DNA from: a virus
Reading direction: 5' to 3' (one strand)
DNA: 28,624 nucleotides
Virus record (IMG/VR): IMGVR_UViG_3300043772_001069
Coordinates: 1 to 28,624 of that record
Shown here in pieces: positions 9,861 to 28,624 of this stretch. The notes under the pieces were generated by a model. It ran no database searches, was not told the DNA's origin, and was given only the letters and a program-made list of their open reading frames with translations. The position numbers and the translations under genes were made by a program. The first letter of the stretch is position 1; the number at the start of each line of letters is the position of its first letter.

Positions 9861-9879
9861 AAAAATCATAAATCATATA

Positions 9880-9891
9880 TTTATTAATAAA
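9880..9891 (+). promoter_or_regulatory. AT palindrome before the 302-aa gene
   Basis: TTTATTAATAAA is a perfect 12-base palindrome centred about 15 bases before the ATG at 9901, in a 40-base gap between coupled clusters. It matches in position and composition the elements before the genes at 902, 16438, 17442 and (minus) 23223. Candidate late promoter or start-region element. Confidence 0.4.
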
Positions 9892-9900
9892 GTATAACGG

Positions 9901-10809
9901 ATGGCAACTGGAGTATATGGTAATGTTAGAGGTGCGGATGTATCACCTGAAGATGTTGAAATAATTATGAATTATACACCATCTAGGGATGATACTGATA
10001 ATTTCATTCTTAAGAAATTGGATGCTACGTCTATATTACGACCATATTTTAATAATACTAATACTGGTGGTAATCCAAATGTTGAAATTTTGGGTGGTTT
10101 ATATAATTTAAAACTACCTGCGGATGAATTTAACAAATTGGGGATTTATACCTTAATGATTAGACCAGCACAAATTAGAACAAAAATTTTGGATTGTGGT
10201 GTATTGTCCGCTTTACCGAATGTTAAGGGGTTAGTTATTGATTTAACAAGTGTTCCTTCAGAATATAGAAATAAGTTTGTTAACCAAGGACTTGTTGGGT
10301 TTCGTATTGAATATCTTAATTCGGATGGTACAAAAATCCCTAACTTTTTTAGGATGATAACATCTTCATTTTTTTGTGAACCAGTTGTTCAGAATTTAAC
10401 TAATACTTCACAAAAAGCGATACGTTATAGATATACTCAAACAAATACAAATTTAATTTTTTGTACGGTATCACCATCTTCATCACCTACAAACAATCCG
10501 TTGTCAACACCATATATTGGACAACCGGACCAAAATATTATTATAACGAACACTTTTTTCAATCCAATAACATTGGATATTGAAATGGTGGAACATGATA
10601 TTTCAACTTTAGCGATTGCACTATATGGGAATCAAACTAAATCCATGGATGATGGTGTTTATACTATTTACGATAAAGATAATAATATTTACAAACAATA
10701 TAACCTATTTGAAATACGTGATCAGTTTAACAACTTATTATATGAAGTACGTCAAGATAGGGGTAATAACATTGATTTCAGTAAAAACTTCACAAATATT
10801 ACAGACTAA
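9901..10809 (+). CDS. Virion structural protein, unrecognised (302 aa)
   Basis: The ATG at 9901 follows a 40-base gap containing an AT palindrome and starts a new coupled cluster. The N-terminus (VYGNVRGADVSPEDVEIIMNY) leads into a mixed alpha/beta region with ILGGLYNLKLPADEFNKLG and IRPAQIRTKILDCGVL. The middle has a Ser/Pro/Thr linker near residues 195-210. The C-terminus (YTIYDKDNNIYKQYNLFEIRDQFN) looks like paired strands. No membrane segment or enzymatic motif. The stop overlaps the next ATG by one base (TAATG), so it is probably produced in step with the wedge candidate downstream. Its position between baseplate genes suggests a structural part; no family recognised. Confidence 0.75.
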   Translation: MATGVYGNVRGADVSPEDVEIIMNYTPSRDDTDNFILKKLDATSILRPYFNNTNTGGNPNVEILGGLYNLKLPADEFNKLGIYTLMIRPAQIRTKILDCGVLSALPNVKGLVIDLTSVPSEYRNKFVNQGLVGFRIEYLNSDGTKIPNFFRMITSSFFCEPVVQNLTNTSQKAIRYRYTQTNTNLIFCTVSPSSSPTNNPLSTPYIGQPDQNIIITNTFFNPITLDIEMVEHDISTLAIALYGNQTKSMDDGVYTIYDKDNNIYKQYNLFEIRDQFNNLLYEVRQDRGNNIDFSKNFTNITD

Positions 10810-13800: not shown

Positions 13801-13835
13801 ATGTTGGAATAAATTTTGAAATTTTGTGTAGTTAA
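10809..13835 (+). CDS. Candidate baseplate wedge protein, gp7/gpI-like (1008 aa)
   Basis: Residues about 300-400 are helical (LYGRNFDQVKKFIDALAYMN, then a leucine-rich LAQTLGWDI segment). Near 450-475 comes FKSKGTRKSVEILMKLIGAPE. This order (helical bundle, then a KGT..S/AV..L...G segment) resembles P2 tail protein I, which corresponds to T4 gp7 in the contractile-tail baseplate wedge. The N-terminal 300 residues and the long C-terminal part are beta-rich additions. A Cys cluster lies near residues 843-870 (GCQIVPVACPPCE, then YDCPIQAVEC) and may bind metal or form crosslinks. It is coupled by TAATG to both neighbours. The wedge partner of gp7 is gp6, encoded at the window start; finding both supports the call, though four genes separate them, unlike T4. 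The gpI relation is by eye. Confidence 0.55.
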   Translation: MAKKYTCPPQTASGSGTFSDNLVGFQLVQGGGLTQGNFEFTNSITEKTNRDFTTGVFSNPINLEGLGIDDTNQAKAIFENNFKVYPNFDLSQITNFTMYGSMVKRISASIENIINNFPAAIESLTYGNDFVSGNTAVNIEYNQIADQTKFDLPLSRIKNPFDIDFSVNATRNLSLREVQVSPLRNLTTGTTSYSLYIDDDGYSLVRIIPSEYLTQGYLTVYVEGNPFNNQNVVSSNFIIRPNDFQVNKVYSEVFDEVEKFLLNRNISPMYTAVFTVPMMADNGDYYNENKKLTWPLLGLWNLDIISPTFNNYLTELNEISQNFDGYKTDLISRFLTTGAFNEFDTTGQKVQKVLQLYGRNFDQVKKFIDALAYMNSVNYNVGNDIPSQLLKNLAQTLGWDIKMSPITNDELLSSVFGQKNGEKSQFLGENTTKTPDELNHQFYRNIVLNSAYLFKSKGTRKSVEILMKLIGAPEALVDFNEYVYLADNKIDMNQFNVQFASISGGTYLQELPVYDPTYTFNIFGQTFSGYTTQSIYSDVNISVDEYPIDEYGYPKMPTPSDDYFFEMGSGWFEQTPSHRANEQIDITNSVFTGQNPSYQTTLKPYVYGEDYLNRYRSLPYTDLGFRLTKMVDNNKSWGVDEVNLRKNIDAGYNAKYFVEDDRLVLNVKNIDLFLNPGQGILYDIWHMSREYNYPIPNEGLKNDIPQTIRYGSGPFTIEYPSRGGIDWTEINPQPKVNTFFEFAQSFWKNTINVRNRQFVSGGNTGGYPTLSSIFWRYLESENLVGIQNNNFNYQNMMEYIDGMGDYWVRLVEQMFPASTLWNTGVRYENTLFHRQKFVWRRQEGCQIVPVACPPCELTASIYTYDCPIQAVECSVFPWDNIPSVNSFGGMLGYVLTQYLISEGRSMIEFNLNALTTKWYVDIRIDNVNVVLDEFFNGVGFSNPSLSSPSENDWKIALMNSLDSLENYGYDYYLTEDDKVNIYNTICSMDDSGMGISINVGINFEILCS

Positions 13836-15976
13836 TGGCTTGTGGTTTATCATATAATTTATATATAACTGGTGATTGTTCATCAAATAGTACTGGTGCG
13901 ATACAGGTTGATATTTTTGGTGATATTACACCACCGGATTATACTATTACCTGGATTTCACCATTTACCGATGTGATATTTTTAGGAGAATTTGTAACGG
14001 GATATACTAGGACTAATTTATCCGCTGGGACGTATTCTTTTTATATTCAAGATACCTGTACTCCAACTAACAATCAATTATTGGTTAATGCTTATATATC
14101 TAGTGGAACTTGTGTTAGTTTAACTAATCATGTTAATACTGTTTGTGGTCAAAATAATGGTTCGTTAACCGCGACAATGACTAATTCAAATGCTAATAAT
14201 ACATTCAGTTTATATGATAATGTAAATGGGTTTATAACATCTGTTAATACATCTTCGGATAATTATTCTTTTAATGGTTTATCTGCTTCAACATATTATG
14301 TAATGGTTGATGATGGTAGTGGTTGTAGTGCTAAGACAGAATCATGTATTATTAAATCATCAACAACTGTTGATTATGGTTTTTATATTGTTAACGATGC
14401 TGGTTGTGCTAGTGAGGGAATGGGGAAAATTTTTATTACTGGTTTAACTGGGAATCCACCATATACTTATGAATGGACTAATGGTGAAATAACTGACAAT
14501 ATAACTGGATTAACACCTGGTTCTTATTCGGTAACAGTGACGGACTCTACTAGTTGTGCGATAACGAAAACCGCGTTTATTTCAACTGTTCCAGATGTTG
14601 GTCTAGGTACTATATATTCATCACCACCTAGTTGTATGATGAATGACGGTAGTATAACTATTGTTATCACTGGTGGTACCGCACCATATTATTATTCTGG
14701 ATCAAATGGTAGTGTTGAAATATCTTTTTCAAAAACACACACTTTTGAAAACTTAGCGGCAGGACCATTTGGTATTTCCGTAACCGACGCGGCGTTATGT
14801 TCATTTAGTACAAACACAAATTTATTAACACCAAATGGGTTTTCAATAACCTCAATATCTAAAACAAACACAACGTGTTTTAACAATGGTGGTAGTATCA
14901 ATATTGTATTAAATGGTGGTAGTCTTAATTATACATATACATTAGAAAATGAATCTGGTGATGTTATAGTTCAAACAACGACTAGTCCAAACTGGAATTT
15001 TACAAACTTAGCTGCGGGTACTTATCAATTAACCATTGTCGGTGGTGAATGTGATATTACACAAGAAATTATTATTGATAACGAATATACTTTTGAACTT
15101 GATATAAACATCACCGGAACTACTTGTGGTGGTAATAATGGATATGTTGAGTTTGTTATTTCTGGAGGTACTGGACCATATGAATATGATTTTGAAGGAT
15201 TAAGTACATTTGTATCACCATTATCATCTATTACATATAATAATTTGAGTGGGGGGTTTTATAACTATAGTATTACTGACTTATCAAATAGCTGTAGAAT
15301 TCAAGGAGTTGTTAATCTAGAATCATCTGAAATGGTTGATTTCGTTTTAGTATCTAGTAATAGTAGTTGTGGTAATGGTAGTATTAGTGCTTATATCACA
15401 ACTGGTGAACCAACTTTTACATATGAATGGAGTCCAAATGTAAATGGACAAACTGGGTCAACGGTATCTAATTTAAGTGCTGGAACTTATACATTAAAAG
15501 TTATTGATGATAATGGGTGTTATAAACAAAAATCAATCACTTTAACAGGAACGAATTCCTTATCAACGTATCAAGTATTTAATGTTTGTGATAATACATT
15601 TGAGAATACTGGTATTTTGGGTAAACGTGGTGCTTTACAGATGTTAATTGAGGGGTATTATGATTTAATTAGTGAAGATACTGATTGTATATTAAATGAA
15701 TCTATTTTTGAAGCTAAAGTAGTGATAAGTGGTGTTTCGGCAACAACAATGTTTTACACTGGGACAACATTAACTGAATACCCTAGTGATGAATTGTGGG
15801 CTAACACAATTAAGGATTTAATTTTAACATACGAAGGTATTGATAGTGTTATTTTGGATTTACCTAATAATAAGATAACAATTAAAACAGATTGTGAATC
15901 TGAAATATCATATGATGATACTCAAGTTTTGGTTAATATGGTTATTCATTATGATATTTCTTGTGTTGAATGTTGA
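13835..15976 (+). CDS. SprB-repeat tail fibre/adhesin-like protein (713 aa)
   Basis: I count seven tandem modules of about 50-60 residues, each opening and closing with Cys: C15-C75, C104-C164, C191-C241, C267-C322, C348-C406, C431-C487 and C512-C562. Each follows the SprB repeat pattern: Cys, then N/D-G-S-I, then a GG..PY.Y.W core, an LSAG.Y turn and a final TD..GC. SprB repeats are known from the Flavobacterium gliding adhesin and other Bacteroidota secreted proteins. Residues 590-713 form a separate domain without Cys pairs until the final CVEC. No signal peptide is present, as expected for a virion protein assembled in the cytoplasm. It is coupled to the wedge candidate by TAATG. A role in fibre formation or host-surface binding is inferred from the modules and context. 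Confidence 0.82.
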   Translation: MACGLSYNLYITGDCSSNSTGAIQVDIFGDITPPDYTITWISPFTDVIFLGEFVTGYTRTNLSAGTYSFYIQDTCTPTNNQLLVNAYISSGTCVSLTNHVNTVCGQNNGSLTATMTNSNANNTFSLYDNVNGFITSVNTSSDNYSFNGLSASTYYVMVDDGSGCSAKTESCIIKSSTTVDYGFYIVNDAGCASEGMGKIFITGLTGNPPYTYEWTNGEITDNITGLTPGSYSVTVTDSTSCAITKTAFISTVPDVGLGTIYSSPPSCMMNDGSITIVITGGTAPYYYSGSNGSVEISFSKTHTFENLAAGPFGISVTDAALCSFSTNTNLLTPNGFSITSISKTNTTCFNNGGSINIVLNGGSLNYTYTLENESGDVIVQTTTSPNWNFTNLAAGTYQLTIVGGECDITQEIIIDNEYTFELDINITGTTCGGNNGYVEFVISGGTGPYEYDFEGLSTFVSPLSSITYNNLSGGFYNYSITDLSNSCRIQGVVNLESSEMVDFVLVSSNSSCGNGSISAYITTGEPTFTYEWSPNVNGQTGSTVSNLSAGTYTLKVIDDNGCYKQKSITLTGTNSLSTYQVFNVCDNTFENTGILGKRGALQMLIEGYYDLISEDTDCILNESIFEAKVVISGVSATTMFYTGTTLTEYPSDELWANTIKDLILTYEGIDSVILDLPNNKITIKTDCESEISYDDTQVLVNMVIHYDISCVEC

Positions 15977-15997: not shown

Positions 15998-16399
15998 ATG
16001 TATTTTTTTGATATAGAAGATTATTGTATATCTGGGTTTATTGGGCAAAACTCAATAGATATTTCACTATATGGTAGTTGGGAAGACCCGGCTATAACTT
16101 ATCGTGCTACTAGGAATGCGTTTTTGAAAACTATTAATGTATGGTATTTATCAACAACTGCGGATAAAGACCCTTCAGTTTGTGAACGTTGTGATCAAAT
16201 AAAAGAAGATTTGTATTTTAATCTAACTGGGGATACTAGAATTTCTGAATTTTGGGATAACGCGGATAATAACAATATGGTTGATTTAACTCAACAACAA
16301 TTCAACGATTATCAAGACGCGATGTTTGAACAGATGTGTTTATTGAAGAATTTAATGAATTGTTTGGACGGAGATTTGTTTGAAGCTTCAACCCTTTAA
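15998..16399 (+). CDS. Small protein of the tail-fibre block, unrecognised (133 aa)
   Basis: The ATG at 15998 lies 21 bases after the SprB-type gene, behind a T-run and an AT-rich stretch. The protein is acidic and helical in its C-terminal half (DLTQQQFNDYQDAMFEQMC). It has four spaced Cys residues (62, 65, 114, 122) that could form a C-x2-C zinc site or two bridges, plus C10. It has no membrane segment. Its neighbours are a fibre protein and a glycosyltransferase, so a chaperone, connector or small virion part is possible, but nothing in the sequence decides this. Confidence 0.68.
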   Translation: MYFFDIEDYCISGFIGQNSIDISLYGSWEDPAITYRATRNAFLKTINVWYLSTTADKDPSVCERCDQIKEDLYFNLTGDTRISEFWDNADNNNMVDLTQQQFNDYQDAMFEQMCLLKNLMNCLDGDLFEASTL

Positions 16400-16407
16400 T
16401 ATTTCAA

Positions 16408-16440
16408 CATTCTTGATATATTTTTATTAAAAAAAGAATG
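16408..16440 (+). promoter_or_regulatory. Inverted repeat covering the glycosyltransferase start codon
   Basis: CATTCTT (16408-16414) pairs perfectly with AAGAATG (16434-16440), whose last three bases are the start codon. Inside it, TTTTTA-T-TAAAAA (16421-16433) is an AT palindrome that could extend the stem beyond a six-base bulge. In RNA this would hide the start codon. The inner palindrome also matches the AT elements before other late genes. Confidence 0.35.
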
Positions 16441-17418
16441 AATCAGGAATTATTATATGTGTCGGCACAACCAGACGTCGCTTATTTTCATTGGCAAGCG
16501 GAGGTTTATATTTACAACTTTATTGAGAAGGGAATTAATCCGAATAATATACATATAGTATTCTCAATTAATCCGAATAAAAAACCATCTGAAGGTTCGT
16601 TAAAATTAAAAGAATTGGGTGTTAATGTTCATCATTATGAAGATACTAGACCCAAAAAATATTACATACCCAGTATTAAACCTTATTTAATTTCAAAATG
16701 GTTGGAGGAAAATCCATCTTATGGTAAAGTATTTTTTTTACATGATGCGGATATTATATTTAGAGAACTCCCAGATTATACAACATTAATCAATGATGAT
16801 ATTTTATATGTGTCGGATACTATTGGGTATATTGGTTATGACTACATTATGGATTGTTGTAAAAGATATGAAATACATCACCCATCTTCAGAAAAAGGTC
16901 AATTATTACAGGAAATGGCGGATGTTGTTGGTATTGACGTTGAGTTAATTAAAGAAAACCAATTAAATTCGGGTGGTGGTCAATATGTTATAAAAGATAC
17001 GGATCATGTATTATGGAATAAGATATATGAAGATTGTGTTCCGTTATATAATCAAATGTTAGATTATCATAAACGATTCCCCATTTCACCAGGTGAAATA
17101 CAATTCTGGACAGCTGAAATGTGGTCGGTATTATGGAATTTATGGAAGGTTGGTAAACAAACGAAGATACATAATGATTTATCATTTTCTTGGGCGACAG
17201 ATACCACTTCAATATATGAAAAACACCCTATCCTACATATGGCGGGAATAACGGAGAACTTAAGGAATACTAAATTCTATAAGGGGGATTTCATAATGGT
17301 TAACCCATTAGATAAACTACGTGAAGATTTGTCTTATTTTAACTACGTGGAAAATCATAGCTCAACGAAAAAATATGTTGAAGTTATGGTTGATTTGGTT
17401 AAAAAAACGACTTTTTGA
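16438..17418 (+). CDS. GT-A-type glycosyltransferase (326 aa)
   Basis: The N-terminus (LLYVSAQPDVAYFHWQAEVY) and the core KVFFLHDADIIF carry a D-x-D signature (D103, D105) of GT-A glycosyltransferases, which bind a metal and a nucleotide sugar. NSGGGQYVIK (177-186) fits the usual acceptor-side N.G....I motif. ISPGEIQFWTAEMW (216-229) and a late His in ILHMAG (265-270) fit the catalytic/metal positions of this fold. It resembles, by eye, cytoplasmic sugar transferases of the hydroxyproline/serine-modifying type, but donor and acceptor cannot be read. It lies inside the fibre block, 23 bases before a protein with a ten-threonine linker, so O-glycosylation of virion proteins is one idea; modifying host glycans or DNA is another. 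Its start lies in an inverted repeat. Confidence 0.72.
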   Translation: MNQELLYVSAQPDVAYFHWQAEVYIYNFIEKGINPNNIHIVFSINPNKKPSEGSLKLKELGVNVHHYEDTRPKKYYIPSIKPYLISKWLEENPSYGKVFFLHDADIIFRELPDYTTLINDDILYVSDTIGYIGYDYIMDCCKRYEIHHPSSEKGQLLQEMADVVGIDVELIKENQLNSGGGQYVIKDTDHVLWNKIYEDCVPLYNQMLDYHKRFPISPGEIQFWTAEMWSVLWNLWKVGKQTKIHNDLSFSWATDTTSIYEKHPILHMAGITENLRNTKFYKGDFIMVNPLDKLREDLSYFNYVENHSSTKKYVEVMVDLVKKTTF

Positions 17419-17441: not shown

Positions 17442-18863
17442 ATGCCCAATATTAATGAATGCGGAGTAAAGACGGTATATCCGATGGATGTTCAATGTAG
17501 TGTGGTTAATCCTACAACAACAACGTCTTCGGATGGTTCGGCAACATTGATTATATCTGGAGGGACTCCACCTTATACGATATTATGGGAAAACGGGAAT
17601 ATTGGTACTAGTATAAATAATTTAGGTGGTGGTGAATATAGTGCGTCAATTAGGGATTATTATGGGGATTTCGTTATAAATACTACGTGTGTTTTAACAC
17701 AACCTCAACCGACAACCACTACTACGACAACAACTACTACACCACAACCAACATATACCTTGTGTATGACTATTACGCAAGTTAATGAATTAAATACGGT
17801 CATTACCCAAATACCATTCAATCCAAATGGTTTATATTTGGGTTATCAATCTTGGTTATCTGACGATACAACTTATTTATTATACTGGGATCAAACTATT
17901 ACATCGTGGAAATTATCTGGTTCAACGCTGAATGTAGTATCGCCAGATCCGTCATACCCACCACTTAATGGGTGGCAATTATTGGGTGGTAATGGTAGTG
18001 TTAGTATGGTACAGGGTGAATGTTTACCTTTACCTATAACAACCTTCACTTATACCTTAACAAATCCAACGTGTACTTGTGATGGTGGAATAGTTATTCA
18101 GGCAACAGGCGTTAATACACCATTCCAATATTCAATTAATGGTGGTTTAAATTATTATAATAATCCAGTGTTTACTAATTTGTGTGGTGGTGTTTATTCA
18201 TTGGTGGTTAAAGATAGTTTGGGTAATACATATACGGATTCGGCGACACTTAATGAGGTGATTCCAACGATAACATATATACTACAACCAACCCAAACTA
18301 ATTCAGGTGGGGGTAATAATATCTATTTAACTTATGGTATAACGGTTAATCCCCCATTACCATCAGGGGTTGTTATAATGTTTGATTTAACGTTAACTAA
18401 TAGTTTTAATAGAACACCTTATGCTGGTAGTGCGACTAATAATTTTGGTTATCAATTAACGAAATCATCAATTGTGATACCTGAAGATACTAGTTCGGTG
18501 GTTGATACTACGTTAACGAATACTTTAACAGTTTGTAGTGAATATATGATGTATAACACTACAACTAATAAAGTTTGGAATGATTTAACTATTGGGGGTG
18601 GTGAATCATATCAACTAACATCATCAAGTAATAGTACATTAAATTGTGGGTATAGTGAAACAATCATACCATCATATGAATTGGATGAATCTAGTGTTAA
18701 TGATGGTATACCACAACCATTAGGGTTTGATTTAGAAGAAAACAATCTTAATTGTTGTAGAAGTATACAAGAACTTACACCAACAATCACCAACATTCGT
18801 ATTGAAGGGTGTGAATGTTGTAACGTTGTTTTAGGGTGGGATTATACTTATAATAGGAGTTAA
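17442..18863 (+). CDS. Fibre/adhesin-like protein with SprB-type modules and poly-Thr linker (473 aa)
   Basis: Residues 19-83 form one SprB-like module (Cys19, GGTPPYTILWENG, LGGGEYSASIRD, Cys83). A linker of ten Thr (91-100) flanked by PQP follows. Residues about 108-194 hold a Trp/Tyr-rich domain with GLYLGYQSWLSDDTTYLLYW and SWKLSG. A second SprB-like module runs from Cys211 (TCTCDGGIVIQATG) to about 268. The C-terminal part (280-473) is beta-rich and ends with Cys pairs (NCCRS, GCECCNV). The module plan, Thr linker and position suggest a receptor-binding or decoration protein of the tail. The central Trp/Tyr domain resembles one in the minus-strand protein at 22169-23008. No signal peptide. 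Function inferred. Confidence 0.78.
   Translation: MPNINECGVKTVYPMDVQCSVVNPTTTTSSDGSATLIISGGTPPYTILWENGNIGTSINNLGGGEYSASIRDYYGDFVINTTCVLTQPQPTTTTTTTTTTPQPTYTLCMTITQVNELNTVITQIPFNPNGLYLGYQSWLSDDTTYLLYWDQTITSWKLSGSTLNVVSPDPSYPPLNGWQLLGGNGSVSMVQGECLPLPITTFTYTLTNPTCTCDGGIVIQATGVNTPFQYSINGGLNYYNNPVFTNLCGGVYSLVVKDSLGNTYTDSATLNEVIPTITYILQPTQTNSGGGNNIYLTYGITVNPPLPSGVVIMFDLTLTNSFNRTPYAGSATNNFGYQLTKSSIVIPEDTSSVVDTTLTNTLTVCSEYMMYNTTTNKVWNDLTIGGGESYQLTSSSNSTLNCGYSETIIPSYELDESSVNDGIPQPLGFDLEENNLNCCRSIQELTPTITNIRIEGCECCNVVLGWDYTYNRS
17710..17740 (+). repeat. Poly-Thr codon tract
   Basis: A run of ten Thr codons with mixed ACA/ACC/ACT/ACG use encodes the linker in the 473-aa protein. Synonymous codons are mixed, so the run has been kept at the protein level rather than being a fresh microsatellite expansion. 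Edges are approximate. Confidence 0.7.
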
Positions 18864-18874
18864 AAAATATTAAA

Positions 18875-21220
18875 ATGAGTTATATATTAAAAAATACAAG
18901 TGCTTTAGTTAATACTAAATTAACAGATACTGGTAGACAGCGATTATCACAAGGGAACTTCAATATATCGTATTTTCAGATTGGGGATAGCGATGTATCA
19001 TATGATACACTACCTAGTGGTTATAATCAAGCAAATTCGATGGTTTTGAATTCGGCGTTTAACGCACAAAATATCACGGGTCAACCGCAAGCTAATAAAC
19101 ACAATATAAAATACCCTTATTTCGTTAATGGCGTTAGTGGTAGCACTTATGGTATACCTTTTATGGATTCGGTAGTCAACCCAATTTATAATACTGCAGC
19201 ACCTAGAGGTTTTTTCAGTGGAACGACAGATGGTGGTATTACTACCTGGAGTGCTTTTACTAATAGTGATTATGTTATTAATAGCAATTATGTTATTGAT
19301 ATTACTTCTTTAACTGGTGGTACAAAAATAACTTTAATTGAAAATGAATGTTCACCAAATCCGGTTAGAAACTATCAAGTTGGGGATATTATTACAATAT
19401 ATTTTGATGGTAAAGATACTGATGATTGTGTTTGTGATGAACCGATTAGTCCTGACCCATGTTCAACGAGTGGTAAAACACCTTGTGTTATGGCAATGCT
19501 TAGTTGTTATCCGATATTAACTTATAGAATAATTGAGGTATGTTTAAATAACATAATAACATTGGATCGTGAAGTTCCGGATTTTTCATTATTTTATGGT
19601 AGTTGTACTGCGAGGGTGCTGGTATATCCACCAACAATGACTGAAATATATGATTCAATAACACCATCATCACACTGGAATGACAATGTTATTAATTTTG
19701 AATCATTATGTGGGATTGACGAGGTTAATGTTAATATTTGGAATATGAATATTCCGTGGTCGGAAAACTTGGCTGGTATGGGAAGTCAATATAAGTTATA
19801 TTCAGATTTCGCGTCAGCTAAATATTTGGGGACTAAAGAATATTTGGGATATCAATCATCTAGTGGTCAAACAGATACGGATAAGGTTTATTATTATAAT
19901 TCTTTTGATGAACAAGTTATTGTGTCGCCAGAAGAACAAAAAGCAATCGCAATTATTCATTATACTAATAATTCAATTAGTTATATGTATGGTGAAAAAT
20001 TTGCTACTGAACCATATGATCCGACCGCTACAATTAACACTACTGGTGAAGGAAGGAATTTCAAACTCCATATTCCATGGTTGATGTGGCATAAAAACCC
20101 TGAATGTTGTTTGGGTCAAACATTTTGGATTGATCCTCCAGGTTTTGATGAATTTGATTTATTTCAAACAGAATATATTAAATCAAAAAAGAATTCGGAT
20201 ATGAATGACCCTGGGATACGTTATTATCATTTATGGGATACCAATCCAAATAATAATGGTTTACCTAATAGAATTGGTAAAGTATTTCCGGATCAACATT
20301 TGGTTATTATTGATGATGAAGAAATTATCGCTGCTTTATCTTATAAATCAAATAGAAATTGGACTTTACCGGCACCGAAGTTATCATTGATAACGCCAAA
20401 CGCTTGTGGGGTATCAACAAGTACTGGTGAAGGGTTATTAACTGGTAGTTCACAATACGTTTATATAACGTATAGATTAACCAATTCAACTTCATTTACT
20501 AATTCATTACACTCTAATTATTATGTTAAGATACAAGGACCTAATAATAATTGTGCGGATTTTGGTCCACAAGATGTGTCAATTCGTTTTGGTGGTGAAT
20601 TTGGATGTTTACAAGGCACTACTCCATTAACAACGACTACGACAACATATAATCCATTAACAACGACTACGACGACTTATAACCCCTTGAATTGTAATAT
20701 GATTGAAGGCTTTTACGCGGATAAGTTTGAGGTGTTGGTACAAGTGGTGAATGGTAATGGTAGACCTGAATCGGATGATTGGAGAATTATTGATTTAACG
20801 TATTTAATGACTGGTACAACATATACTGGATTTATTACAGAAGATGATTTGGTGAATACTACATTTATCATAACTAAAGATATGTATGATGATGCCGAGT
20901 TGTATGACTTGGGTGATTATATTAATTTAACTCCGAATAATTATACTGGTACTTCTTTAACTTTTGGTGATGAATATTATTTTTATGGTGTTTTAGAAAC
21001 AGATATTCAGGCGACAATATATGAAATGGTTTATAAAGTAAATTTGGGGGCTTATAACTTCCAAAAAACATCAAATCCTGGGTATACTCAAGGAAATCCT
21101 TCATATATTACTGAAATTGGTCTTTATAATTCTAATAAGGAACTTATGATTGTATCAAAACTACAATCACCTGTTTTACGCCAGGGGATACAACAGTTCT
21201 TGATAAAATTTGATTTTTAA
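18875..21220 (+). CDS. Large tail fibre/baseplate-associated protein with Thr-rich repeat (781 aa)
   Basis: The N-terminus (residues 15-44) has KLTDTGRQRLSQGNFNISYF followed by QIGDSDVSYDT, a pattern I associate with proteins of large T4-related phages in which it precedes fibre or structural domains. A Cys-rich stretch lies near 182-210 (CVC, later PCVMAMLSC). The middle has a Trp/Pro-rich domain (HIPWLMWHKNPECCLGQTFW, about 400-420). Near 583-606 two copies of a ten-residue LTTTTTTYNP unit form a linker. The C-terminal 190 residues end with YITEIGLYNSNKELMIVSKL and VLRQGIQQFLIKFDF, resembling the collar-like ends of fibre proteins. Start at 18875 follows an A-rich stretch 11 bases after the previous stop. 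Probably a host-contact or adaptor protein; exact role not known. Confidence 0.75.
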   Translation: MSYILKNTSALVNTKLTDTGRQRLSQGNFNISYFQIGDSDVSYDTLPSGYNQANSMVLNSAFNAQNITGQPQANKHNIKYPYFVNGVSGSTYGIPFMDSVVNPIYNTAAPRGFFSGTTDGGITTWSAFTNSDYVINSNYVIDITSLTGGTKITLIENECSPNPVRNYQVGDIITIYFDGKDTDDCVCDEPISPDPCSTSGKTPCVMAMLSCYPILTYRIIEVCLNNIITLDREVPDFSLFYGSCTARVLVYPPTMTEIYDSITPSSHWNDNVINFESLCGIDEVNVNIWNMNIPWSENLAGMGSQYKLYSDFASAKYLGTKEYLGYQSSSGQTDTDKVYYYNSFDEQVIVSPEEQKAIAIIHYTNNSISYMYGEKFATEPYDPTATINTTGEGRNFKLHIPWLMWHKNPECCLGQTFWIDPPGFDEFDLFQTEYIKSKKNSDMNDPGIRYYHLWDTNPNNNGLPNRIGKVFPDQHLVIIDDEEIIAALSYKSNRNWTLPAPKLSLITPNACGVSTSTGEGLLTGSSQYVYITYRLTNSTSFTNSLHSNYYVKIQGPNNNCADFGPQDVSIRFGGEFGCLQGTTPLTTTTTTYNPLTTTTTTYNPLNCNMIEGFYADKFEVLVQVVNGNGRPESDDWRIIDLTYLMTGTTYTGFITEDDLVNTTFIITKDMYDDAELYDLGDYINLTPNNYTGTSLTFGDEYYFYGVLETDIQATIYEMVYKVNLGAYNFQKTSNPGYTQGNPSYITEIGLYNSNKELMIVSKLQSPVLRQGIQQFLIKFDF
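20624..20683 (+). repeat. Two 30-bp tandem repeats encoding a Thr linker
   Basis: Two adjacent 30-base copies starting CCATTAACAACGACTACGAC encode LTTTTTTYNP twice within the 781-aa protein. They are near identical at the DNA level, unlike the mixed-codon tract at 17710, which suggests recent duplication. Confidence 0.75.
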
Positions 21221-21222
21221 TT

Positions 21223-21828
21223 ATGGTAAAAGAATTAAAACAAACACCTAAAGTATTAGGTCTTGATGTGTCAACCACAACAATTGGTTGGGCATTATTT
21301 GATATACAGAATAAAGAATTATTGGAATTAACCCACATTTCACCGAGGGTTAAACTTAAAAAAGATGATATATCAAAAATTGAAGAATTATTACTTAAAG
21401 CGGAAGTGTTTAAGGCAAAACTAAAAGACTATAAAGATTTAGGTATAGTAAAGATTATCATTGAAGAACCATTGTTAAACTCAAACAATGTATACACGGT
21501 TCAAACTCTATTAAGGTTTAATAGTTTTATTTGTAAAGTTATATATGATACATTAGGGATTGTTCCTGAATTTATTTCAACGTATAATTCAAGGAAGTTT
21601 GCTTTTCCTGAACTTGTTAAAGAAAATAATCAAGGTAAATTTGTATTATTCGGTGGTCTTCCTAAAGATATTGATAAGAAAATGATTATCTGGGAAAAAG
21701 TTGCTAAACTTGAACCACAAATTCAATGGTTATACACTAAAAACAATACATTGAAGAAGGAGAATTTTGATCAGACAGATGCTTATTGTTGTGTGTTAGG
21801 GTTCTTAAAACAACAAGAAATTTGGTAA
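21223..21828 (+). CDS. RuvC-like Holliday junction resolvase (201 aa)
   Basis: The RNase H-fold signature of RuvC-type resolvases is visible: VLGLDVSTTTIGWALFD with D15, then IIIEEP with E81/E82, and a C-terminal DQTDAYCCVLG with D183/D186. These acidic residues would bind two metal ions and cut branched DNA. Length is slightly above bacterial RuvC (about 170 aa). The gene starts two bases after the preceding structural gene and ends just before a strong terminator, so it is probably transcribed with the late genes. In T4 the unrelated resolvase gp49 clears branches before packaging; a similar job is inferred. Another RuvC-fold nuclease activity is possible. Confidence 0.8.
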   Translation: MVKELKQTPKVLGLDVSTTTIGWALFDIQNKELLELTHISPRVKLKKDDISKIEELLLKAEVFKAKLKDYKDLGIVKIIIEEPLLNSNNVYTVQTLLRFNSFICKVIYDTLGIVPEFISTYNSRKFAFPELVKENNQGKFVLFGGLPKDIDKKMIIWEKVAKLEPQIQWLYTKNNTLKKENFDQTDAYCCVLGFLKQQEIW

Positions 21829-21834
21829 TATATT

Positions 21835-21862
21835 TGGGGGTTAATTAACCCCCATTTTTTTT
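21835..21862 (+). terminator. Rho-independent terminator after the resolvase gene
   Basis: TGGGGG (21835-21840), TTAATTAA, CCCCCA (21849-21854) form a perfect 20-base palindrome followed by eight T. This is a strong intrinsic terminator for the plus-strand late block. The T-tract overlaps the stop codon of the converging minus-strand gene. On the minus strand the palindrome is followed by mixed A/T rather than a T-run, so it is less likely to stop transcription there. Confidence 0.88.
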
Positions 21863-22169
21863 AACATCCTTGTAATAAGAATAGTGTATTATCTTGAAGT
21901 AGGAAACAAGTATTATCTTGTAATAATAGACAACATTCTTGTTGTTCACAATATAGAATTTCAAAACGTTCACAACCATTTCCCGCAATTATCTTTAATC
22001 CAATCGCTGGTGCTGTATTGAATTGATATGGTAGTGGGATTGAATTAGTTGGTGGAACATTACTAAAAATTGTAGCGATTAATATACATTGATTTCCATA
22101 TACATCACAAGCGTATATGGTGTATGGGTAGCTAAACCCTGTTATGTTATTTATCTGAATTGTATTCAT
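21861..22169 (-). CDS. Small Cys-rich single-module protein with LLQDNT repeats (102 aa)
   Basis: I take the ATG at 22169, which overlaps the stop of the upstream gene as TAATG; a TTG five codons earlier is possible but less likely. Residues 4-70 (IQINNITGFSYPYTIYACD, C28, IPLPYQF, LKIIAGNGCERF) align by eye with the whole 71-aa protein encoded at 23008-23223, so the two are paralogues. The pattern also resembles one SprB-like module cut short. Residues 74-102 are Cys-rich and carry an eight-residue repeat, LLQDNT/CFLLQDNT/LFLLQ, ending in GC. No signal peptide. It may be a small virion decoration or receptor-binding subunit; function unknown. Confidence 0.72.
   Translation of the reverse strand: MNTIQINNITGFSYPYTIYACDVYGNQCILIATIFSNVPPTNSIPLPYQFNTAPAIGLKIIAGNGCERFEILYCEQQECCLLLQDNTCFLLQDNTLFLLQGC
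21870..21932 (-). repeat. 24-bp tandem repeat in the C-terminus of the 102-aa protein
   Basis: CAA codons for Gln recur every 24 bases (Q100 at 21870-21872, Q92 at 21894-21896, Q84 at 21918-21920), each preceded by two Leu codons. Two are followed by DNT and the third by the C-terminal GC. About two and a half units are present. Confidence 0.65.
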
Positions 22170-23008
22170 TAATTTTCCGGACAAATAATTGTTGAGTTAA
22201 TTGTGTTGAATGAAACTTCACCCATAAAATTGCATGGTCTAACGACTGGTGGTAATGTTGTGGTGGTAGTTGTTGATGTAGATGTTGTTGTGGTTGTATA
22301 AGTATTTATAACCGCGTCAACAATTAACACACACGGAGGTTGTGTTGTTGTAGTTGTCGTTGAAGTAGTTGTTGTTGTAGATGTTGTGGTTGTAGTTATA
22401 CAATCAAAAATGGCTGTAAAATCTAGAGTATCACAATCAACTGGGGGTATTGTGGTAGTTGTTGTACAATAACCTTCGGATAAATAATCTTCACATAAAT
22501 CTGGACAAGTACTTGAACAAGGACTTTTACCTGACAATAAACAAAGACCTCCCAATGATGTTGATAAACACCATTGAGTTGACCCAGTTGAATAATAAAT
22601 AACTAGTTCATTTGTTGATGCTGACCAATATGTTTTACCATTATATAAACCAGAATCTAAATAGTTATCATCATAAAGATCTGTATTTGAAATACAATAA
22701 ACTGGTCGTTCAATACACGCTAGACCATCACAATCACCATCATATAAACAATCAAGTTCAGACAAGAAAAATGAACTAAAATTGACGCTATACTGAACAT
22801 CATCTTGATAATAATAAAAGTTCATTGAGGTAAAATCACCAACACAACGAGTTGCATATCCTTGAGAATAAAATTGTTCAGAAATTGGTGTTAATGAACA
22901 ATCATTAAACCCATCAACATATACGGTATTATTGGAGTATAAGGTATTACCAGTAGCGGAAATGATATCCCTATCATCAATACGTATTACAATACAATTA
23001 CAAGCCAT
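22169..23008 (-). CDS. Cys/Thr-rich adhesin-like protein (279 aa)
   Basis: I take the ATG at 23008 (MACNCIVIRIDDRD), which overlaps the upstream stop as TAATG; a TTG ten codons upstream also opens the frame. Residues 1-180 carry about 17 Cys, some in close pairs (CLYDGDCDGLAC, then SPCSSTCPDLC). Residues 119-153 (GLYNGKTYWSASTNELVIYY, then QWCLS) resemble residues 127-164 of the plus-strand 473-aa fibre protein. The C-terminal 100 residues have three Thr/Ser linkers (182-186, 205-222 and 238-251) broken by IPP, QPP and LPP, separating short Cys-containing pieces. The mucin-like linkers and domain sharing suggest a virion surface protein involved in binding. No signal peptide or membrane helix. 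Confidence 0.72.
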   Translation of the reverse strand: MACNCIVIRIDDRDIISATGNTLYSNNTVYVDGFNDCSLTPISEQFYSQGYATRCVGDFTSMNFYYYQDDVQYSVNFSSFFLSELDCLYDGDCDGLACIERPVYCISNTDLYDDNYLDSGLYNGKTYWSASTNELVIYYSTGSTQWCLSTSLGGLCLLSGKSPCSSTCPDLCEDYLSEGYCTTTTTIPPVDCDTLDFTAIFDCITTTTTSTTTTTSTTTTTTQPPCVLIVDAVINTYTTTTTSTSTTTTTTLPPVVRPCNFMGEVSFNTINSTIICPEN

Positions 23009-23223
23009 TATGGTGTTAGTGTTAAGAAGGTTATACAATTATCATTGTCAATCACTTTAAGATTATAGTCATCTTGATTTTCCATTATAGAAGGAATATC
23101 AAACTCAAAAGGTGAAGTTGAAATTGTGTCAATATAAATACAGGTTGTGATTGGGTTATCACAAACATAAATATCAAAGGGTGTTGCTCCAGTTATATTA
23201 TTTATTGTTATTTTAGCGGGCAT
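23008..23223 (-). CDS. Small single-module protein, paralogue of the 102-aa protein (71 aa)
   Basis: First gene of the three-gene minus-strand cluster. It reads ITINNITGATPFDIYVCD, then C31, FEFDIPSIM, and LKVIDNDNCITFLTL, aligning along its length with the 102-aa protein at the other end of the cluster. The last segment also resembles the end of SprB module 7 in the 713-aa protein (LKVIDDNGCYKQKSITL), so this looks like one stand-alone module. Its stop overlaps the next ATG (TAATG). An AT palindrome lies about 16 bases before its start, as for other late genes. Probably a small virion or adhesin subunit; unproven. Confidence 0.7.
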   Translation of the reverse strand: MPAKITINNITGATPFDIYVCDNPITTCIYIDTISTSPFEFDIPSIMENQDDYNLKVIDNDNCITFLTLTP

Positions 23224-23233
23224 TAACTACTTT

Positions 23234-23245
23234 TATTTATAAATA
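23234..23245. promoter_or_regulatory. Palindromic TATAAATA element in the divergent gap
   Basis: TATTTATAAATA is a perfect 12-base palindrome, so the T4 late promoter box TATAAATA occurs on both strands. It is centred 16 bases before the minus-strand start at 23223, the same spacing as other late genes, and about 71 bases before the primase start at 23311. It probably serves the minus-strand cluster; the rest of this 87-base gap is AT-rich with no further clear signal. Confidence 0.45.
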
Positions 23246-23310
23246 TAAAGGGATTCAAAATCTAATAAAGATTTGGATTTATCAATTATATATATTAATT
23301 TTACCAAGAT

Positions 23311-24210
23311 ATGGAAGACGAGTTTGATATTGTTGTGAATTTGATCACCGAATTTTTGGGTGATCCCAAGAAAATATATGAAAATAACTCCCAGGTTTTA
23401 TGGAATTGTCCGATGTGTGATGAAGATAAGAACAAGGGAAATTTGGAGGTGAACGTTGATAAAGCGGTTTTTCATTGTTGGTCATGTAGTGAAATGAATG
23501 ATACCCACGGACCATTAGGTAAACTTTTTGATATGTTTGGGACAAAAAAACAGAAGAAGGTTTATGAATTATTTAGACCAGAAGAATTCAAACCAAAAGA
23601 AGTTTATCGTGAAAAATTAAAACTACCCCCACATTATACATTATTCAAGGATTCAAACCCCAGATATCCGATATATCAACAAGCGATGAATTATCTTAAA
23701 GGTAGGGGTATTACAGATGAAATTATTGAAAAATATAATATTGGTTTTTGTGATACCGGAACACATGGAGGTAGAATTGTGATACCATCTTATGATGTTG
23801 ATGGTGAATTGAATTATTATATTGCCAGAAGTTGGTCGCCATATAGTAAAGCGAAATATAAAAACCCCCAAGCTGAGAAGGATAAAATTATTTTCAATGA
23901 AAAGTTGGTAGATTGGGAAAAAGATATATATATTTGCGAGGGGGCTTTTGATTCGGTGTTTTTACCAAATTCAATTCCCATGTTGGGGAAATACATGTCC
24001 GAGAAATTATTCAATACAATATATGAAAAAGCGAAGGGTGATGTTATCATTGTTTTAGACCCCGACGCTTGGCAAAACGCCGTTAAGTTATACCATGAAT
24101 TAAATGGGGGTGAACTATATGGTAGGGTGAAGATGGTAAAACTTCCTGGTGATAATGATGTTGCTGATTTAAAGGGGGAAATAAATGATTATTATTATGA
24201 TATGCGATGA
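23311..24210 (+). CDS. DNA primase, CHC2 zinc finger plus Toprim (299 aa)
   Basis: The N-terminal zinc-binding site is visible as CPMC (C33, C36) and FHCWSC (H55, C56, C59), close to the CHC2 type. The catalytic Toprim region follows: DIYICEGAFDSVF with E210, and VIIVLDPDAW with D250 and D252. Between them lies a conserved-looking YLKGRGITDEIIEKYNIGF segment typical of DnaG-type primases. The enzyme would make RNA primers for lagging-strand synthesis. At 299 aa it is shorter than bacterial DnaG and lacks a helicase domain, so it probably works with a separate helicase, as T4 gp61 does with gp41. It opens the plus-strand replication block and overlaps the next gene by four bases (ATGA). Confidence 0.88.
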   Translation: MEDEFDIVVNLITEFLGDPKKIYENNSQVLWNCPMCDEDKNKGNLEVNVDKAVFHCWSCSEMNDTHGPLGKLFDMFGTKKQKKVYELFRPEEFKPKEVYREKLKLPPHYTLFKDSNPRYPIYQQAMNYLKGRGITDEIIEKYNIGFCDTGTHGGRIVIPSYDVDGELNYYIARSWSPYSKAKYKNPQAEKDKIIFNEKLVDWEKDIYICEGAFDSVFLPNSIPMLGKYMSEKLFNTIYEKAKGDVIIVLDPDAWQNAVKLYHELNGGELYGRVKMVKLPGDNDVADLKGEINDYYYDMR

Positions 24211-26854: not shown

Positions 26855-27623
26855 ACTAACCCACTTTTCCGATTTACACTTGAAGTTATTCAAGGATCAC
26901 CAGTTATTTAGGGATGTATTAACGGATATGTTAAACCAGTTCAAGGAAATTAAACCAGACCGAATTGTATTTACGGGTGATTTGCTTCATTCAAAAAATC
27001 AATTAACACCGGAATTGGTTGAAATTGCGTCCTGGGTATTAACGGAATGTTCATTAATTGCTAAAACAATTATTATTCCAGGCAATCACGATGCCTTGGT
27101 CAACAATAACGATCGTCTTGATAGTTTAAGTCCAATTATCAACAACTTAAACAATTCTAATATTGTTTATTATAAGGATAGAGGTGTTTACGAGGATGAA
27201 AATATATCTTGGTGCGTATATTCCCAATTTCAGGGCAATGTTCCCCCAGATATAAATACTGCTACAGGTATTAAGGTTGGTTTATTCCATGGTCCAGTGC
27301 AGGGAATGAAGACCGAGTTGGGTTTTGATTTTGGTGATGAAGGTTATAATATTTCCAAGTTTGATGGTTTGGATGTTGTTTTGTGTGGTGATATTCACTT
27401 AAGACAAGAATTCAATATTCAAAATGGGAGGGGTTATATGATTGGTTCAACAATTCAACAAAATTATGCTGAAAAGATTAATCAACATGGTTTTGGTATA
27501 TTGGATATTAACACAATGAAATATGAATATGTTGATTTGTATAATTCAAAACCTTATTTATCGTTCAAGATTAATTCATATGATGATATAACTAATGAAA
27601 ACGAACAATTAACGAATGTATAA
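26844..27623 (+). CDS. SbcD/Mre11-like phosphoesterase, T4 gp47-type (259 aa)
   Basis: All calcineurin-like metal-site motifs are visible: FSDLHL (D10, H12), TGDLLH (D46), GNHD (N81, H82, D83), LFHGP (H149) and GDIHLR (H185). This is the nuclease subunit of SbcCD/Mre11-Rad50; in T4 the pair gp47/gp46 resects DNA ends for recombination-dependent replication. At 259 aa it is shorter than T4 gp47 (about 339) and bacterial SbcD, so most of the C-terminal capping domain is missing. The ATPase partner (SbcC/gp46) is not in the window; the next gene is a repeat protein without a Walker motif. It overlaps the flanking genes by 11 and 8 bases. Confidence 0.87.
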   Translation: MINKLTHFSDLHLKLFKDHQLFRDVLTDMLNQFKEIKPDRIVFTGDLLHSKNQLTPELVEIASWVLTECSLIAKTIIIPGNHDALVNNNDRLDSLSPIINNLNNSNIVYYKDRGVYEDENISWCVYSQFQGNVPPDINTATGIKVGLFHGPVQGMKTELGFDFGDEGYNISKFDGLDVVLCGDIHLRQEFNIQNGRGYMIGSTIQQNYAEKINQHGFGILDINTMKYEYVDLYNSKPYLSFKINSYDDITNENEQLTNV

Positions 27624-28624
27624 GAAGCTAGAGAAATACAAGGGTGAAATATGGGAATATTGTCAGTTGAATGATATTTCGGATATTGACGCTTTTGTAT
27701 TTCAATGTTTTAAACAGGGATATGATATTAAGAAATATGGTTTTTTAGGTAATACTGTTGTTGAAGTGAAGGAGGTGGAGGTTATCAAGGAAGTTAGAGT
27801 TGAAATCCCCACCGAAATCATTAAGGAGGTTATTGTTGAGAAGGAAGTGATTAAGGAAATTCCGGTGGACAAGATTATTGAGGTTATTGTTGAGAAGGAA
27901 GTGATTAAGGAGGTTATCGTTGAGAAGGAAGTGATTAAGGAAATTCCGGTGGATAAGATAATTGAAAAAGAAATTGTCAAGGAAGTTGAGGTTATTAAAG
28001 AAATTCCGGTGGATAGGATAGTTGAAATTATCAAGGAGGTTGAGGTTGAGAAGATAATAACCAAGACCGAATATATTTCGGATAAATCTGGTGAAGATGA
28101 ATTGTTGTTAAAAATACAACAGTTGAATGATGAAGTTAATACCTTAAGACAAACTCCCCCCATTGAAATCATTAAGGAAGTTGAAAAACCGATTGAAGTT
28201 ATTGTTGAAAAGGAGGTTATCAAGGAAATCCCGGTAGATAGAGTTGTTGAGGTGATTAAGGAAGTACCAATAGATAAGATTGTGGAGGTTATTAAAGAAG
28301 TTCCGGTGGATAAGATTATTGAAAAAGAAATCATCAAGGAAATTGAAGTTATTAAGGAAGTGTTAGTGGACAAAATTATTGAGGTTGAAAAAGAAGTTAT
28401 CAAGGAAGTTCCAGTTGATAGAATTATTGAAAAGGAAGTTATTAAGGAAGTAGTTGATGACAAAACAAAAGAAAAGATGGGGTTATTACAACAGACCCTT
28501 CAGAAGTTAAGACAAGAAAACAATGATAAAGATGTTGAAATTAACAAATTAAATGGTATAATTAAAGAATTAGAAGACGGGTTAAAACGTACTGGAGCGG
28601 TTTTTCTCAAGGGGTCTAATATAA
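27616..28624 (+). CDS. Repeat protein with 'KEVPVDKIIE'-type units and coiled coil (3' partial)
   Basis: The frame opens at the ATG 27616, overlapping the SbcD-like stop by 8 bases, and runs off the window after 336 residues. Residues 1-45 form a small aromatic N-terminal domain (GEIWEYCQLNDISDIDAF, FKQGYDIKKYGFLG). Residues about 52-154 and 183-282 consist of imperfect units alternating Val/Ile with Lys/Glu (VIKEIPVDKIIEKE); I count eight with a PVDK/R core or close variant. A short coiled coil (ELLLKIQQLNDEVNTLR) interrupts at about 160-178, and another begins near 284 (LLQQTLQKLRQEN). No ATPase motif is visible. It could be an extended scaffold or spacer protein; position might suggest a link with recombination. 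Not recognised as SbcC. Confidence 0.75.
   Translation, partial: MYKKLEKYKGEIWEYCQLNDISDIDAFVFQCFKQGYDIKKYGFLGNTVVEVKEVEVIKEVRVEIPTEIIKEVIVEKEVIKEIPVDKIIEVIVEKEVIKEVIVEKEVIKEIPVDKIIEKEIVKEVEVIKEIPVDRIVEIIKEVEVEKIITKTEYISDKSGEDELLLKIQQLNDEVNTLRQTPPIEIIKEVEKPIEVIVEKEVIKEIPVDRVVEVIKEVPIDKIVEVIKEVPVDKIIEKEIIKEIEVIKEVLVDKIIEVEKEVIKEVPVDRIIEKEVIKEVVDDKTKEKMGLLQQTLQKLRQENNDKDVEINKLNGIIKELEDGLKRTGAVFLKGSNI
27835..27953 (+). repeat. 35-bp exact direct repeat inside the repeat protein gene
   Basis: A 35-base segment starting GTTGAGAAGGAAGTGATTAA occurs at 27835-27869 and again at 27919-27953, period 84 bases (28 codons, in frame). It is the clearest pair in an array of imperfect repeats covering about 27770-28460. 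In-frame period and sequence identity point to recent duplication within the coding array. Confidence 0.75.

Follow-up and report, generated by a model that had tools for sequence, protein, structure and literature searches.

A minus-strand three-gene cassette beside the primase gene, a probable modular adhesin set of uncultured aquatic phages

Introduction

Three genes, here termed A, B and C, run against the direction of their neighbors between the late and replication blocks of the virus record IMGVR_UViG_3300043772_001069, a 28,624-base IMG/VR record of a freshwater phage that was analyzed whole and is referred to as the window. What such a cassette does for the phage, and how it is controlled, is the question that this locus raises. 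Our analysis indicates that A-B-C is probably a late-expressed, virion-borne set of modular adhesins, serving receptor binding or surface attachment, shared by a large group of uncultured phages of aquatic settings that probably infect Bacteroidota. This reading draws on the location with tail genes, the modular and exchangeable ends of the related proteins, the lack of obvious signal peptides and a promoter-like element of the cassette's own.

Organization of the cassette

All three genes lie on the minus strand. Gene A (23008..23223) encodes a single immunoglobulin (Ig)-like module protein of 71 amino acids (aa), whose family ranges from 71 to 81 aa. Gene B (22169..23008) encodes a 279-aa Cys/Thr-rich protein, which has a conserved core at about residues 100-185 and, after it, Thr-rich linkers with three short segments that are also conserved, and gene C (21861..22169) encodes a 102-aa paralogue of A ending in a short repeat tail (LLLQDNTC/FLLQDNTL/FLLQGC). 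Coupled through overlapping stop and start codons (TAATG), the three genes sit between a RuvC-like resolvase gene (21223..21828, plus strand; phrog_159), the last of the plus-strand late block, and a DnaG-type primase gene (23311..24210, plus strand; phrog_47, E 1e-45), the first of the replication block. Between a baseplate wedge protein (phrog_219) at one end and the RuvC-like gene at the other, the late block encodes large tail-type proteins that carry SprB repeats and Thr linkers. The first-pass annotation had described a TAATG-coupled trio between these blocks with a Cys/Thr-rich protein in the middle; the open reading frames (ORFs), their overlaps, the flanking genes and the poly-Thr linkers of B bear this out.

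A and C belong to one family of Ig-like modules

Pairwise BLASTP of A against C gave an E-value of 9e-8 over 73 columns, and profile-profile comparison of A-type (n=56) with C-type (n=23) sequences gave 99% probability, an E-value of 2e-18 and 35% identity. A hidden Markov model of the A family, run over the window proteins, scored strongly only for A (5e-35) and C (6e-15), with the next best at 0.001. The alignment of the two small proteins noticed at first pass is therefore homology and not chance. C comprises an A-like module plus a 25-30-aa tail (CCLLLQDNTCFLLQDNTLFLLQGC) and is thus more than a bare module.

The A family has seven invariant residues, three of which are cysteines. An AlphaFold2 model of A adopts a six-strand Ig-like sandwich, with a predicted local distance difference test score (pLDDT) of 82; its structure matches in the PDB were weak and comprised usher and Ig-like domains. 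A PDB sequence search pointed to a CTCF zinc finger (E 0.006) across 18 residues only, which was judged a chance match. The closest predicted viral structures are three uncharacterized proteins of uncultured Caudovirales phage (A0A6J5L5Q5, A0A6J5L892 and A0A6J5L8W1, of 73, 334 and 92 aa), with template modeling (TM) scores to the query of 0.88-0.96 and 29-41% identity. By fold they are direct relatives of A, with no difference in kind, and probably belong to the same undescribed family. Pfam and PHROGs yielded no family match at a meaningful level for A, B or C. The suggestion that the set may not have been described thus holds for curated family libraries, whereas uncharacterized homologs have already been deposited from uncultured phages.

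SprB repeats, named after a Flavobacterium gliding adhesin, share with the A family the pattern "PY.F ... Y.LKV.D..GC"; however, the A family has extra N-terminal strands and three invariant cysteines, and none of its 56 members matched the Pfam SprB model (PF13573) at E 0.1. The same model does match the neighboring plus-strand window proteins at 13835-15976 and 17442-18863. An hhalign comparison of the A family with the SprB repeats of these phages reached 90% over 42 columns, confined to the C-terminal half; reversed controls against SprB gave 0.4-0.7%, yet the A profile, when reversed, reached 89% with the C family, which makes the 90% unsafe. The small proteins had been taken for single stand-alone SprB-type modules: A does stand alone, but C has its extra tail and the SprB identity is not established.

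A conserved partner and exchangeable far ends

Relatives were collected in five scans of IMG/VR, which gave about 340 loci, many of them overlapping. The B core was present in 85 of 86 genes downstream of A, on proteins that span 201-1,163 aa and have Pro/Thr (PT)- or T-rich linkers, and its model has a pLDDT above 90 over most of its length. C-type proteins take two forms. One, seen in the window, measures about 100 aa and has a short repeat-like tail; the other has 252-2,075 aa and PT linkers. The notion that C is a mere truncated fiber head was ruled out, as the ~100-aa proteins that bear such a tail constitute a separate family. At the upper end are the 2,075-aa proteins of L334 and L345 (both 6.2 kb ORFs), which have C-type heads and count among the largest such fibers found.

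The far ends of the long C-type proteins carry Laminin_G_3 (E 2e-25), DUF285 (E 3e-46; similar to leucine-rich repeats, LRR), weak LRR and PKD domains. A DUF285+PKD end is also found on the B protein of locus L149, and is 56% identical over 278 aa (E 6e-89) to the end of the C-type protein of L159. Such swapping of ends between two scaffolds provides the strongest evidence for a binding role of the set, and the lectin, LRR-like and PKD ends on C-type and B relatives lend support to the adhesin-like modular nature claimed for it earlier.

In the arrangement that we propose, A and C represent one family of ~70-residue Ig-like modules, with A standing alone and the C-type module forming the N-terminal head of fiber-like proteins. 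The far ends of the latter would be exchangeable binding domains, the window protein having only its short repeat tail there. B regularly accompanies A and consists of a conserved Cys-rich core with Thr/Pro linkers, extended by additional modules in other phages. All three proteins would reside in the virion, where the A/C module may anchor or cap a fiber, or A may itself bind, and the far ends may bind the host or other surfaces. As read from the sequence, the starts of A, B and C have no obvious signal peptide, as expected of virion proteins made in the cytoplasm.

A different role for A would be that of a dedicated assembly factor, a chaperone or cap for B that builds the fiber without being its binding part. 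The A gene is regularly found in front of B and is usually coupled to it at a distance of a few nucleotides; the A protein hardly varies in length (mostly 70-81 aa) while B ranges over 201-1163 aa; and the fold of A weakly resembles usher and Ig-like domains. Yet C-type proteins carry the A-like module covalently, as their head, which hints at a structural role for it, and we consider a purely assembling A improbable.

The cassette is conserved beside the primase gene in variable orientation

Clustering of the primases at 95% identity gave 89 clusters. A adjoins and diverges from the primase gene in 80 of them, and is divergent from it in every cluster scored as having A. The window-type arrangement, in which A-B is convergent with RuvC, was found in 55/89 clusters, and A-B is co-directional with tail genes in 12/89; a further 12/89 have A with the remainder of the arrangement unresolved, 8/89 have RuvC beside primase without A, and 2/89 are otherwise arranged or unresolved. 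On the primase tree (FastTree with midpoint rooting; no formal test of branch support), the phages scored as lacking the cassette form one group, and the three arrangement states require 7 changes, compared to at least 15 in shuffles.

Individual loci revealed further arrangements. The phage of L061/L370 has no cassette beside primase; there, A (73 aa) lies in a plus-strand tail operon, directly after the gene for a 2,068-aa protein that matches the B core, and overlaps a linker-rich SprB-type gene. G007 has an A-B-C trio (71, 524 and 100 aa) followed by SprB-type genes on the trio's own strand, and in L369 A-B-C is co-directional into tail genes. The varied direction of A-B(-C), the tail-operon copy of L061/L370 and the G007 trio show that this late gene set occurs in several orientations, of which the window has one. 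The description as an inverted cassette is thus true of the window, but the relative orientation varies among relatives. Its synteny is conserved, with the A-B pair kept beside primase in most relatives, and the term accessory is probably wrong: only one clade is without the cassette at this place, and its one examined member has A and a B-core gene in a co-directional tail operon. The position of A-B(-C) in or beside the tail-gene block, with the baseplate wedge gene in the same late block, supports the adhesin reading.

The junction with RuvC bears on whether the cassette could be a moron, that is, cargo of foreign origin that brings a promoter and a terminator of its own, has entered between RuvC and primase and acts on the host. 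A terminator-like hairpin (TGGGGGTTAATTAACCCCCA + T8; 21835..21862, plus strand) lies between the convergent RuvC-like gene and C. Such hairpins follow RuvC at 38/69 convergent junctions and at 0/6 where primase follows directly, against 15/2,000 random 90-mers. They would suit a moron, as would the promoter-like element upstream of A and the close RuvC-primase junctions of 31-45 bp that occur. Nevertheless, the cassette is found in most of the group and so is not sporadic, the phages without it at this site are one clade, in whose examined member the tail operon contains A and B-core genes, and obvious signal peptides are lacking; we regard a moron as very unlikely. Downstream of RuvC in relatives (e.g. 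L041, L064 and L093), a symmetric hairpin, AAATATCGTC-TTTTT-GACGATATTT followed by T runs, recurs and is apparently a bidirectional terminator common to many of these phages.

A bipartite element separates A from the primase gene

In the 87-bp intergenic region upstream of A, on its own strand, lie two conserved blocks, a TATATTTAT box (23239..23247, minus strand) 15 nucleotides (nt) before the start codon, and AATCTTTATTAGATTTT (23257..23273, minus strand), a variant of the consensus AANCTTCACAAGTTTTT that holds an imperfect dyad. The TATATTTAT box was found in 88 of 89 distinct regions upstream of A and, with one exception, lies 4-20 nt ahead of the start codon; with the regions anchored on it, the AANCTTCACAAGTTTTT block lies at a fixed distance. 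The two form a bipartite element, CTTCACAAG-TTTT-N10-TATATTTAT, of which the window has the CTTTATTAG variant. A weight matrix gave 209 matches above 12 bits in the loci (shuffled maximum 10.5), 206 of them upstream of A or C-type genes; as the matrix was trained on the same sites, it is the lack of matches elsewhere that is informative. Among 20 long records (89-322 kb), the element with at most one mismatch occurs once in each of 15, and two more, G004 and G007, have it with the CTTTATTAG variant of the window; matches with 2-3 mismatches elsewhere in these records are about as common as with a backward control. A TATATTTAT box without the CTTCACAAG half also stands at 9870-9901, shortly upstream of a 302-aa late gene, a hint that TATATTTAT may be a general late box. 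The T4 late box TATAAATA was considered as the control signal; its 14 copies in the window are mostly inside genes and it is missing upstream of A in most relatives, and TATATTTAT was preferred.

Facing the element is a candidate divergent Bacteroidota-type promoter for primase, TTTG-N20-TAATTTTA (23272..23303, plus strand), which overlaps the dyad. The pattern TTG-N17-22-TAnnTTT precedes primase in 54/82 distinct regions (shuffle mean 4.5) and is close to TAnnTTTG, the flavobacterial sigma-A -7 consensus (PMC9723704). A sigma-70 scan found no more sites than in shuffles and was not informative. The claim that the cassette is separately controlled gains support from this apparent pairing of a promoter-like element with a Flavobacterium-type primase promoter. 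The bipartite element would act as a late promoter, active later than the divergent promoter of primase. A more elaborate idea, possible though doubtful, is that the region is a single-copy genetic switch, with a palindromic operator overlapping the host-type primase promoter and a phage-specific promoter for the adhesin operon, through which a phage regulator would turn replication and virion adhesin expression in opposite directions.

For the control region only, the bipartite element might be mainly a replication origin or an operator of the primase operon, with promotion of A incidental. It is AT-rich, contains a dyad, lies beside primase in about one strong copy per genome, and overlaps the primase-side TTG-N17-22-TAnnTTT pattern. 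On the other hand, the TATATTTAT half faces A at a fixed spacing from the other block, and the element is missing where primase directly follows RuvC, as in L023/L024, whose weak copy sits just upstream of a tail gene. This explanation seems unlikely to us.

Neighboring genes and host

A, B and C are the only credible minus-strand genes of the window, as first proposed; a 253-aa minus-strand ORF (27702-28463) is the antisense of a repetitive plus-strand gene, hence spurious. That gene (27616-28623) runs off the window end and encodes a KEVIVEKEVIKE(I/V)PVDKI repeat, probably a coiled coil. A 133-aa gene (15998-16399), with almost no relatives in the loci, directly follows the SprB-repeat gene, where many relatives (e.g. 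L329, L338 and L344) have a C-type gene. The next, 326-aa protein (16438-17418; phrog_4417, of unknown function) looks by eye like a GT-A glycosyltransferase (HDADIIF); in many relatives it is located among Thr/Pro-linker tail genes, and it might glycosylate linkers of tail proteins. The 781-aa tail protein contains a duplicated TTTTTTYNPL linker, seen as a 30-bp tandem repeat (20623-20682; two copies, 93% matches); this and a 1747-aa protein had no match in annotated phage genomes. Rfam and tRNA scans were both empty.

The SprB repeats, the flavobacterial promoter patterns and the similarity of the primase to those of Flavobacterium phages, among others, suggest that the host is probably a member of Bacteroidota.

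Discussion

The C-type proteins, with a conserved A-like head, a PT-rich shaft and swapped lectin, LRR or PKD ends, resemble phage tail fibers and receptor-binding proteins, and in relatives the A/B/C genes lie within the tail gene cluster. They differ in that the small Ig-like module at their head is also found on its own, as A, and in neighboring genes, that a Cys-rich partner B accompanies them, and that the genes diverge from primase. A conserved N-terminal head with variable C-terminal binding domains, the hallmark of tail fibers, is found in C-type relatives, window C having no recognized binding domain.

Several observations weigh against an adhesin set. The B core has neither a solved-fold nor a sequence match, and neither B nor C of the window has a recognizable binding domain, so that this copy of the cassette could be reduced or differently used. 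Among 50,697 annotated phage genomes there was no A-type match (E up to 10) and only spurious matches for B, and no annotation could be transferred. In bacterial genomes, neither the C-type alignment nor RuvC gave a relative that would link the phage directly to a host.

Ig-like modules are also known from capsids, and A, B and C might decorate the capsid rather than the tail, as Ig-like spikes holding the phage at surfaces or particles. T4 Hoc, which consists of Ig-like domains in a row and sits on T4-like capsids (PMC10385173), shares with A the Ig-like fold and presumed surface exposure; A, however, is one 71-aa module in another gene context without the C-terminal capsid-binding domain of Hoc, and no cassette protein matched the Hoc family in Pfam or PHROGs. 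Bacteroidota gut phages have modular Ig-like (BACON, PKD) adhesins (PMC13370021), as in the BACON repeats of crAssphage (PMC6949934); these resemble the present set in having Ig-like modules and PKD domains on proteins presumed to be structural, but here the modules form separate one-module genes, in records of aquatic rather than gut type. BACON had no match in A members or in the scanned large B/C relatives, nor had any other Ig family of Pfam above cut-off. With tail and baseplate genes as neighbors, and with variable C-terminal binding ends on C-type heads as in fibers, a capsid location is in our view a poor prospect. The cassette is best seen as a variant of modular tail-fiber or Ig-like phage adhesins, yet one with no Pfam or PHROGs family of its own.

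Two protein families not found in Pfam and PHROGs are thereby defined, the A/C Ig-like module and the B core, together with a trade of binding ends (lectin, LRR-like and PKD) between two different scaffolds in a large group of uncultured aquatic phages. The A/B/C families are concrete candidates for host-range determinants and for phage-host matching in freshwater metagenomes, and the divergent element, conserved and in single copy, provides a way to test how replication is kept apart from late expression.
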